Shown: piece by piece, positions 2,847 to 59,820 of the stretch | How the letters are laid out: each line of letters starts with the position of its first letter | Position numbering within the stretch: the first letter of the stretch is position 1 | DNA from: Pelagovum sp. HNIBRBA483 | GTDB taxonomy: Bacteria; Pseudomonadota; Alphaproteobacteria; Rhodobacterales; Rhodobacteraceae | Direction of reading: 5' to 3' | Assembly: GCF_040931995.1 (NCBI RefSeq) | Contig: NZ_CP162412.1 | Location: 2,170,001 to 2,234,000 of the forward strand | Length of the DNA stretch: 64,000 nucleotides | Notes under the pieces: generated by a model | Database searches by the model: none | What the model was told of the DNA's origin: nothing | Seen by the model: the letters and a program-made list of their open reading frames with translations, nothing else | Made by a program: the position numbers and the translations under genes

Positions 2847-4016
2847 GATCACGTCACCGGCAGCAGCAGCCCCGCCCCGCCCATGCGGGATACCAAGCGC
2901 GGTAAGCCCTGCTTCCATCGTACCGAGCGCACCGAGGATCATATGGGCATTCACATGGCCCATGTGGCCCACCCTGAGGTAATCCTCCTCCGGATGCCGC
3001 CCCAACCCGATCCCGAGCGTGAGGCCTGCCTGATGTTCGCACCATTTCCGCAGCTTGGTTGCCGCGCCACCGCCCATGCGTATCGAGGTGACGGCATGCG
3101 AACGCTGGTTCGCATCCGCAACGTTCAAGGCGATATCGCCACTTTTGCCCCAGCACTCTACCGCCGCCCAAACAGCCCGCGCCAAGATCTCATGACGCTG
3201 CCAGACATGCGGCAGGCCTTCCTCTTGGATCATGTTCACTGCTTCCCGCAGGGCAAACAGCTGGTGCGTCGGGGCTGTGCCATCCCAGTATTCGTAGAAC
3301 AATTCAGGCTTCGCACGCGGGCGCCAATCCCAATATCGGGTCGCACAATCGGCATGCTCCCGCCGCGCATCAGCACGGTCATTGAACCAGACGAATCCCA
3401 TTCCCGGCGGCGCCATCAGGCCTTTCTGCGAGGCGGCTAAGAGCACATCGACACCCCATGCATCCATCTCGATCCGGTCGCAGCCGAAGGAGGCGATCGC
3501 ATCGAGCATGAGGAGCGCCGGATGCGACAGCTCATCAAGCACCGCGCGCAACGGCGGCACCGCGCTGCGCAAGCCCGTCGAGGTATCCACATGCACCGTC
3601 AACACGGCAGCAATTTCGTGTTCTTTGTCCTGCGCCAATCGCGCCCGCAGCCGCGCCGGATCAATCGTTTCATGTTCGCCAAAATTGATGATTTCGGCAT
3701 CCAGCCCCATGCCACGGGCCATTTCTTCCCAGCCAAACCCGAACCGCCCCGTGACCAGCACCAACACCTTATCACCGCGCGACATCGTGTTGGCGAGCGA
3801 CGCCTCCCAAAGACCGTGCCCATTAGAGATATACATCGCCAAATGCCCCTCTGTCCCTGCAAGGCGCTTCAGATCGGGGACGAGACTGGCCGTGATATCG
3901 GGCAGTTTGCCTTCGTAGATGTTTGGTGATGGCTGCACCATAGCCCGCAAGACCCGCTCGGGCAGAACAGACGGACCGGGAATAGCGAGGTAGGATACGC
4001 CTTGGGAAAGCGACAT
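2814..4016 (-). CDS. PLP-dependent alanine/serine--glyoxylate aminotransferase family protein
   Basis: This 400-residue class V aminotransferase belongs to the alanine-glyoxylate/serine-glyoxylate/PucG-like group. The N-terminal IPGPSVLPERV motif, the LMLDAIASFGCD segment and the PLP lysine K198 in AASQKGLMAPPGMGF are characteristic. The start at 4016 is chosen for the GGAG site 6-10 bases upstream and because MSLSQG leads straight into the conserved N-terminus; a longer open frame upstream lacks family similarity. Likely substrates are glyoxylate or 2-oxo acids paired with Ala, Ser or ureidoglycine, which cannot be resolved here. It is divergent from the ABC exporter gene, with 122 bases between them. 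Confidence 0.85.
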   Translation of the reverse strand: MSLSQGVSYLAIPGPSVLPERVLRAMVQPSPNIYEGKLPDITASLVPDLKRLAGTEGHLAMYISNGHGLWEASLANTMSRGDKVLVLVTGRFGFGWEEMARGMGLDAEIINFGEHETIDPARLRARLAQDKEHEIAAVLTVHVDTSTGLRSAVPPLRAVLDELSHPALLMLDAIASFGCDRIEMDAWGVDVLLAASQKGLMAPPGMGFVWFNDRADARREHADCATRYWDWRPRAKPELFYEYWDGTAPTHQLFALREAVNMIQEEGLPHVWQRHEILARAVWAAVECWGKSGDIALNVADANQRSHAVTSIRMGGGAATKLRKWCEHQAGLTLGIGLGRHPEEDYLRVGHMGHVNAHMILGALGTMEAGLTALGIPHGRGGAAAAGDVISTALRAPCPD

Positions 4017-57071: not shown

Positions 57072-57218
57072 GGATCAAGGTCCGTTCTATGGGAATTTCC
57101 CTGCCCCCTACCCCGCCACGGGCGTGATGTCACCCCCTCCCCCTTAAAAACTGCCCACCACCTTGCCACGCGAGCGCGGCTCTGCTTCTCTGCGATGCAG
57201 GGCTTGAGAGGGGCATCC

Positions 57219-58094
57219 ATGAAAGCAAAGCTTGGCATCATCGGCGGTTCGGGGCTCTACGCGCTCGACGCCCTTTCAGGGGCCGAATGGCGCATCGTTG
57301 ACAGCCCGTGGGGCACACCTTCCGATGCGCTTCTGTGTGGCGAAGTCGCGGGCGTGGAGGTCGTGTTCCTCCCCCGCCACGGGCGCGGCCACCGGCTCAG
57401 CCCCGATGCCATCCCCTACCGCGCCAATATCGACGCGATGAAGCGGCTCGGCGTGACCGATCTGGTTTCCGTCTCCGCCTGTGGCTCGTTCCGCGAGGAC
57501 ATGGCACCGGGTCATATCGTGCTGCCTGACCAGTTCATCGACCGCACCTTTCAGCGCCCACCCAGCTTCTTTGGTACCGGCTGCGTCGCGCATGTGAGCC
57601 TCGCCCATCCCACTTGTGCGCGGCTGGGTGATCTGTGCGAGGCCACCGCCCGCGATCTCGGCGCGGCCGTCCACCGCAATGGCACCTATCTGGCGATGGA
57701 AGGCCCGCAGTTTTCCACCCGCGCCGAAAGCCGCCTTTATCGCGAGGTCTGGGGCGCGGACATCATCGGCATGACCAACATGCCCGAGGCCCGCCTCGCC
57801 CGCGAGGCCGAGCTGTGCTACACCACCATCGCTATGGTCACTGATTATGACTGCTGGCATCCCGATCACGGCGCGGTCGATGTCAGCGAGGTGATCGCCA
57901 CCCTCACCGCCAATGTCGCAACCGCCCGCGACCTCGTCGCCCGCCTGCCGTCGGGCCTCACCGCGCGGCCATCACCCTGCCCCTGTGGCTGCGACCGCGC
58001 CCTCGATCACGCGATCATGACCACGCCCGACACCCGCGACCCCGCCCTCCTTGCCAAGCTTGATGCTGTCGCGGGGCGAGTTCTCAGCAATTAA
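57219..58094 (+). CDS. mtnP: S-methyl-5'-thioadenosine phosphorylase
   Basis: This 291-residue enzyme splits methylthioadenosine into adenine and methylthioribose-1-phosphate. Motifs include LGIIGGSGLYAL at the N-terminus, LPRHGRGH, NYRANIDA-like YRANIDAMKRLG, MEGPQFSTRAES and the specificity segment MTNMPEARLAREAELCY. The start at 57219 follows GAGGGG; 57195 is an in-frame alternative without a good site. The adenine it releases is salvaged by apt, which lies downstream but is separated from it here by the foreign gene at 58112. Confidence 0.95.
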   Translation: MKAKLGIIGGSGLYALDALSGAEWRIVDSPWGTPSDALLCGEVAGVEVVFLPRHGRGHRLSPDAIPYRANIDAMKRLGVTDLVSVSACGSFREDMAPGHIVLPDQFIDRTFQRPPSFFGTGCVAHVSLAHPTCARLGDLCEATARDLGAAVHRNGTYLAMEGPQFSTRAESRLYREVWGADIIGMTNMPEARLAREAELCYTTIAMVTDYDCWHPDHGAVDVSEVIATLTANVATARDLVARLPSGLTARPSPCPCGCDRALDHAIMTTPDTRDPALLAKLDAVAGRVLSN

Positions 58095-58111
58095 CAGCCA
58101 TTGAGAAGATT

Positions 58112-59287
58112 ATGAAATTTCAACAAGGATCGACTGGTTCACTTAACAAATTTGAGAAAAGAATTGCAAAACGCCTACTGAACGACGGCTTAAATAGCCA
58201 AGACGTCCACGCGCGAATACTTTTTGGACGGAAAACTAGTGTAAATTTTGCACGAGTGACGTCAGTCAAAGCTGACCTACAGCAATTATCGGCAACAGAC
58301 GAAGAGCTTGAAGATTTTTTGCTTTTTAAGCGAATGCATGACCCAAGCACCGGCCTAAACCCGTTTCAAGATGAACGACTTGTCAGGTCCCGAGAGGCGA
58401 TGAAACTCGCCGTTGGCGTATTTAACAACCCTTCAATCCTATTTCGAACCCAAGCGTTTACTGTCCTGTCGGTAATCGCTTGGACTTATGCCGTCCTTGA
58501 GTACGCCCATCGGAAAGGCCTTCCAACAGAACGAAGAGACGGAAAGGCGATCTCCCTTTCTGATTTCTTGGGGCTGCCAGAATGCCCACTTTCCGACGGT
58601 GTATCCAACAACCTTAAGTCTGTTATACGTCTAAGAGATTTAGTTGAGCACCGCCTTCTATCAGCAGAAGATCCAAAATGGATTTCGCTATTCCAGTCGT
58701 GCTGCCTGAATTACGAAAAATTCATCACTGAACAATTCGGAAAATCTGTTTCGCTAGCTGAAGATTTGAGTTTCTCTCTACAATTTTCCGGCCTATCTCT
58801 CGACCAAGCAACAAATATGGTTCGCGCAGGGCTATCAAACGAGGTCCAAGCAATCAACCGAGAGCTGTTTGATCATATGACAGATGCTCAGCGGTCTGAT
58901 CAGGAGTTTCAATTTTCGGTTATTTTTACAACTATTGCTGCTTCAAAATCTAAAGCTGCTTTTCAGTTTTTGTCAGCTGACTCCCCCGAGGGGAAGGAGA
59001 TTTCGCAAGTATTGGTGAAACATAAACCATCGGCCGAGACTCACCCTTTTCGAGTGAAGGATGTGGTCGCAGCCGTTAAAAAAAGGACGGGAAAGAACTT
59101 CAACACCACCAAACATACCACTGCATGGAAAGAGAATGAAGTTCGTCCGGATGGAAACTCTGCATCACCAGAAAAAACAAAAACGGACTATTGTTTCTAC
59201 AATCCAACATTCAGAGAATACTCGTATAGTCAAATGTGGATCGACTTTTTAGTGAACAATCTGAATGAAAACGGGATCGATGAATAG
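58112..59287 (+). CDS. AT-rich foreign gene: HTH plus DUF3644/HEPN-like protein, candidate defence RNase
   Basis: This 391-residue protein is unlike its neighbours in base use: two sampled 60-base lines have 22 and 23 G+C, against 45 of 60 in a line of mtnP. The N-terminal part (about 12-60; [34 protein letters not shown]) looks like a helix-turn-helix. The middle (about 92-185; [34 protein letters not shown]) resembles DUF3644. At 175-180 it has RDLVEH, an R-x4-H motif like that of HEPN ribonucleases. The C-terminus (311-391; [25 protein letters not shown]) looks like a further module. It starts 17 bases after mtnP and ends two bases before the apt ATG. Family and function are tentative. Confidence 0.6.
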
Positions 59288-59289
59288 CT

Positions 59290-59820
59290 ATGCCCACCGT
59301 CAAAAACTTCATCCGCACCATCCCCGATTTCCCCAAGCCCGGCATCCAGTTCCGCGATGTCACCACCCTCTTCAACGATGCCCAAGGCTTCCGCATGGCG
59401 GTCGATCAGCTTCTGCATCCCTATGCTGGGGCGCAAATTGACAAGGTTGCAGGGCTGGAAGCACGCGGCTTCATCCTCGGCGGCGCTGTCGCGCATCAGC
59501 TGGGCAAGGGCTTTGTCCCGATCCGCAAGAAGGGCAAGCTCCCTGGCAAAACAATCGAGCAAGCCTACCAGCTCGAATATGGCGAAGCGGTGATGGAACT
59601 GCATGATGATGCCCTCCAACCCGGCGAACGGGTGCTCTTGGTGGACGATCTCCTCGCCACCGGCGGCACGGCGGAGGCAGGCATCCGCCTAATCGAAAAG
59701 CTCGGCGCCGAAGTGATCGCCTGCGCCTTTGTGATCGACCTGCCCGATCTGCGCGGCAGAGCCCTGTTGGAAAAGCTTGGCGTTCCGGTCCACGCGCTTT
59801 GCGCCTTCGAGGGCGATTAA
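59290..59820 (+). CDS. apt: Adenine phosphoribosyltransferase
   Basis: This 176-residue enzyme makes AMP from adenine and PRPP. It begins [25 protein letters not shown], and the PRPP-binding loop [14 protein letters not shown] is at about 115-128. The length is typical. The ATG lies two bases after the stop of the AT-rich gene and has only a weak GGGA upstream inside that gene, so its translation now probably depends on coupling to the insert. It completes the MTA/adenine salvage begun by mtnP. Confidence 0.95.

Follow-up and report, generated by a model that had tools for sequence, protein, structure and literature searches.

The gene that lies between mtnP and apt in the window (the whole 64,000-nucleotide stretch of DNA analyzed here) is read, with reasonable though not firm confidence, as encoding a HEPN ribonuclease that works as a single protein and is of the DUF3644 type (EC042_2821-type; PADLOC PDC-S19), acquired as one gene and set without a visible scar between its two host genes. 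Such a protein probably acts as a one-protein ribonuclease that aborts phage infection, with both the activity and the trigger being what we infer for it. What can be said firmly is that the DUF3644 gene moves horizontally and that the window copy is a solitary, acquired conflict gene, because of an empty site in a close genome, a scattered distribution, and the company of mobile elements and defense genes in which homologues are found. The broad identification, DUF3644 as HEPN and as a candidate defense gene, is not new, since Anantharaman et al. had already in 2013 named DUF3644/EC042_2821 a HEPN family with a conserved Rx4-6H motif (PMC3710099). The first-pass annotation, made from the letters of the sequence, had made the same family call, and the Pfam match described below, together with that paper, bears it out.

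The inserted gene and its setting

The open reading frame is intact, from an ATG start to a TAG stop, and is tightly fitted: 17 bases follow the stop of mtnP, and 2 bases lead to the start of apt, exactly as first annotated. The G+C content had been put at 37 to 38%; the gene is indeed an outlier, but those values belong to single lines of sequence, and the mean over the gene is 44.0% versus a window average of 60.8%. Among all 1,176-base stretches of the window, it has the lowest G+C (standard deviation of 2.8% at that length), and at third codon positions it reaches 41.8%, compared with 79% in mtnP and 74% in apt. The genome holds one copy, intact and without a paralogue.

Table 1. Features of the DUF3644 gene, its protein domains, and the adjoining genes
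Feature	Position	Strand	Basis or remark
mtnP, S-methyl-5'-thioadenosine/purine-nucleoside phosphorylase family, upstream host gene	57195..58094	+	Pfam PNP_UDP_1, 3.4e-44
17-base gap with purine-rich GAGAAG ahead of the DUF3644 gene ATG	58095..58111	+	Sequence
DUF3644/HEPN gene, 391 aa	58112..59287	+	Candidate defense RNase, solitary, horizontally acquired, PADLOC PDC-S19
N-terminal helical HTH-like domain, residues about 13-74	58148..58333	+	AlphaFold2 helices 13-24, 29-37, 46-54, 63-74
HEPN four-helix domain, residues 88-209	58373..58738	+	AlphaFold2 helices 88-105, 112-135, 162-180, 188-209; PF12358
R175-D-L-V-E179-H180, HEPN R-x4-H motif, end of third helix	58634..58651	+	Invariant in 19/19 homologues
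C-terminal domain, residues 308-387, PF18740, "EC042_2821 REase-like" by name	59033..59272	+	Pfam, 2.9e-05
apt, adenine phosphoribosyltransferase, downstream host gene	59290..59820	+	Pfam Pribosyltran, 3.1e-17

No other defense gene was found among the neighboring genes read in the source genome. The ends of the insert share no direct or inverted repeat of at least 7 bases, and neither a transposase nor an integrase adjoins the gene, which rules out a mobile element with ends of its own.

When the insert was scanned against a promoter consensus, its plus strand gave nothing and its minus strand a single weak site, as chance predicts. The 17-base gap by itself suggests that the gene is transcribed from the mtnP operon promoter, and the GAGAAG within it is a probable ribosome-binding site, as judged from the sequence. 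Similarly, with 2 bases between the insert and apt, translation of apt may now depend in part on the insert.

Empty sites and the company of homologues

Evidence for acquisition comes from the one other genome of the genus compared (G354), in which mtnP is 87% identical at the DNA level and the site is empty, with 10 bases between the two host genes (mtnP TGA-CAGGATCCCC-ATG of apt). The first-pass annotation had both proposed acquisition and pointed to this interval as the one to compare across genomes. We took apt loci from other genomes with mtnP in reach upstream, 19 intervals in all, with gaps from 0 to 1,247 bases; none of the 19, G354 included, holds a DUF3644 gene. An old or fixed member of the salvage operon is therefore ruled out, by its absence from all 19 intervals, that of G354 among them. 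Family genomes often hold a different single passenger gene at this place, so the mtnP-apt junction seems to accept insertions repeatedly. Named by eye from sequence, these other passengers are DUF2927-like (L019, L032, and L034), a LysE-type transporter (L026, L033, and L037), or NadR-like (L020 and L027).

Counting the source genome, a homologue is present in 6 of 397 genomes sampled from the family (about 1.5%), 12 of 385 from the class, and 5 of 399 from the phylum, in unrelated places. A second presence/absence pair was found: in one genome (G109) the gene stands after the terminator of a YeeE gene and before rplO, and in another (G1122) it is missing. The nearest relative, at 52%, lies downstream of thyX in Aliiroseovarius lamellibrachiae. 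In the tree, which mixes chromosomal, plasmid, and viral sequences, there are two clades, and members of the window's own family, six in number, fall in both, ungrouped. At the DNA level, E. coli genomes and plasmids gave no match.

Phages and plasmids are prominent among the carriers. A viral scan with a single sequence as the query found nothing, and an alignment-based search found 10 viral contigs with a homologue, mostly on the strand opposite to that of the flanking phage genes, which is the position of phage cargo genes. On two of the viral contigs, near-identical DUF3644 genes (L085, 1241 to 2461; L086, 2099 to 3319) have different upstream flanks, and the sequences thus suggest that the gene may move between phages as a unit. 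In many satellite phages of streptococci, a distant relative adjoins the integrase gene; such proteins, such as that at 3983 to 4948 of L044 (Javan9), match from about residue 89 on and are annotated just as hypothetical. Plasmid copies occur in Phaeobacter and Falsirhodobacter, with toxin-antitoxin or partition genes nearby.

Most chromosomal relatives are solitary, in otherwise ordinary regions. One is downstream of HsdR and Mrr (type I restriction-modification [R-M]/Mrr), another is next to AbiEi/AbiEii (L063), and another is next to a NOV_C protein. Truncated or frameshifted copies also occur (L063, 1471 to 2451, oriented to the gene; L066, 6095 to 6484; L078, 1101 to 2069). This distribution over viral, satellite, and plasmid sequences, with R-M and Abi neighbors, is of the defense type and agrees with the initial placement of the gene among defense systems. 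It is otherwise for the first proposal of a trigger through nucleotide or adenine metabolism. In each relative examined, the gene has different neighbors (thyX; YeeE/rplO; LysR; NOV_C; AbiE; HsdR/Mrr; phage genes), and the position among salvage genes is common to no relative found. Because the neighbors are unrelated in the relatives examined, control by adenine metabolism is unsupported, and we reject that trigger.

Domains of the protein

DUF3644 (PF12358) matches residues 90 to 239 with an E value of 2.3e-33 (115.8 bits versus a cutoff of 27.6), and it is matched by all 19 homologues. The PADLOC profile PDC-S19 covers residues 89 to 388 (E = 2.7e-48), and PDC-S19 models were likewise matched by 19 of the 19 aligned homologues. 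At an E value of 1 or below, PADLOC gave PDC-S19 models only, with no match to ApeA or other families; an NCBIfam search with the 391-residue protein and a sequence search of the PDB each gave no match.

In HEPN proteins, the R-x4-6-H motif closes the third helix of a four-helix fold. The RDLVEH motif (residues 175 to 180) closes the third helix of the HEPN region in the AlphaFold2 model, and R175, E179, and H180 are invariant across an alignment of 19 sequences spanning two deep clades, as are E88, R94, E95, N105, W124, and N167. The R175/H180 pair singled out at the outset is thus conserved throughout. The model, whose input alignment left out two plasmid rows, has a mean pLDDT of 75, mostly 80 to 95 over residues 11 to 180. 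When the whole model was searched against PDB folds, HepT (of MntA-HepT), the HEPN protein AF_0298, and Csm6 recurred, with no match below an E value of 0.1; the HEPN-type matches had probabilities of at most 0.80, TM scores (target) of 0.53 to 0.65, and E values of about 0.7 to 2, i.e., not significant. Shallow alignments of the HEPN and HepT families (PF05168 and PF01934) were also made for this analysis, and a profile comparison with them gave no link, no better than shuffled columns. The grounds for placing the protein in HEPN are therefore the motif and the family assignment already in the literature; the modeled fold is consistent with it, at a level short of statistical significance.

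Both the HTH-like N terminus and the distinct C-terminal module that had been perceived in the translation are present in the model. The N-terminal helices are mostly at a pLDDT of 82 to 95, and Q30 and N45 are conserved there among the 19 homologues. The C-terminal match to PF18740 is marginal (25.0 bits versus a cutoff of 24.9), and 5 of 19 homologues match that family at an E value of 0.01 or below. After residue 230, the invariant positions among the 19 are Q232, V270, F330, H335, W339, and W376; no PD-(D/E)XK catalytic set (D/E plus ExK) is conserved within residues 226 to 391. Residues 308 to 387 are modeled as helix, helix, beta hairpin, and helix. Many MerR/RacA-type winged-helix DNA-binding domains came up when this fold was searched, all of them weak (E above 1), with RacA matching at 2.5 Å and a TM score of 0.65 of the target; there were no restriction enzymes among the 50 matches listed. 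With no nuclease residues conserved and a helix-helix-hairpin-helix model that is weakly MerR-like, these results suggest that the module may bind nucleic acid rather than cut DNA and may be winged-helix-like. We keep this as a suggestion because residues 225 to 307 are modeled at low confidence, and a degenerate fold there is compatible with the model. The Pfam label "restriction endonuclease-like" misfits the PF18740 region in the clade of the window protein, where catalytic residues are not conserved and the model resembles a winged helix.

Proposed mode of action, alternatives, and related systems

ApeA-type single-gene HEPN abortive-infection RNases have an R-x4-6-H site and are thought to cut RNA on infection. 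The window protein is like ApeA and other single-gene HEPN RNases in being one protein with such a site (PMC3710099); the flanking domains differ, and PADLOC matched it to no family other than PDC-S19. It is closest to the EC042_2821/DUF3644 family, whose order of domains it shares, namely, an HTH-like N terminus, a HEPN domain with R-x4-H, and a C-terminal EC042_2821 module (PMC3710099). EC042_2821 proteins fuse HEPN to wHTH, REase, and Zn-ribbon domains, among them a fusion with the EC042_2821_CTD REase, and occur in R-M operons (PMC3710099). Homologues of the window protein, too, are found among defense genes, but the window C-terminal module lacks nuclease residues and is winged-helix-like in the model, and the window copy stands by itself among metabolic genes of an operon rather than in an R-M operon. 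As to PDC-S19, a single-gene candidate, it is the best profile match and its homologues are on phages, on plasmids, and beside R-M genes, whereas residues 1 to 80 of the window protein lie outside the match. PDC candidates are largely unvalidated (PMC12988326), and our literature search found no experiment on DUF3644 or PDC-S19. DS-11, from DefensePredictor, is a CBS-HEPN single-protein defense system whose HEPN residues are needed for defense; its CBS domain serves as the sensor, with an adenine derivative as the presumed ligand (PMC13092281). It likewise joins a HEPN effector to a sensing domain in one protein; the window protein has HTH- and winged-helix-like domains in place of a CBS domain. 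By analogy with DS-11, control of a HEPN protein by an adenine derivative is plausible, by way of the CBS domain that is absent here.

We propose that the protein, expressed from the mtnP promoter, would bind or sense nucleic acid through its N-terminal HTH and C-terminal winged-helix-like domains; the DNA of an infecting phage, or intermediates of its transcription or replication, are possible targets. Pairing of the HEPN domains would bring R175, E179, and H180 together, and on infection the paired domains would cut host or phage RNA, so that growth would stop before phage release. One can envision a more specific architecture, in which the RNase is clamped between the HTH and a MerR/RacA-like winged helix. 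Once these domains bound invader DNA or a transcription complex that had stalled, the RNase would be driven directly, and the single protein would need no helper genes; in this detailed form, we think the idea unlikely, if worth stating.

The copies in prophages, satellites, and plasmids could also mean that the gene is selfish, of a toxin-like or addiction type, or is superinfection-exclusion cargo of a prophage or plasmid that works for the mobile element, now stranded on the chromosome without present benefit. The broken copies (in L063, L066, and L078) are as expected for weakly selected genes and fit that account. However, there is no antitoxin partner beside the window gene and none that is consistent in relatives, and the window copy is intact, as is its motif; we hold such an origin to be a minority prospect, well behind a defense RNase. 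More doubtful still is an active restriction endonuclease at the C terminus, which would let the protein cut both phage DNA and RNA. The name of PF18740, a score just over the cutoff, and the REase-HEPN fusion of the 2013 paper (PMC3710099) speak for this two-nuclease weapon, but the missing catalytic set across 19 homologues, the modeled fold, and the MerR/RacA-type matches, with no restriction enzyme among those listed, make it quite improbable. Lowest of all, and largely refuted, stands a role in regulating the salvage operon, through transcription or RNA processing, with a tie to the metabolism of adenine or methylthioadenosine. It would account for the tight fit between mtnP and apt and for two DNA-binding-like domains, yet the site lacks the gene in the other genome of the genus, as in every interval compared, and the relatives of the gene adjoin unrelated genes.

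Were the clamped architecture true, the "restriction endonuclease" label of the C-terminal family would be wrong, and the gene would be one that spreads as a single unit among phages, plasmids, and chromosomes. Even now, the nuclease label of PF18740 is called in question, which changes what to assay. For the favored reading, a HEPN ribonuclease acquired as one gene, the window offers a predicted single-gene defense RNase outside any defense island, embedded in a housekeeping operon, and the genus also has a clean site without the insert, so that the two could be compared directly, as a pair, to learn whether DUF3644 genes give protection from phage.
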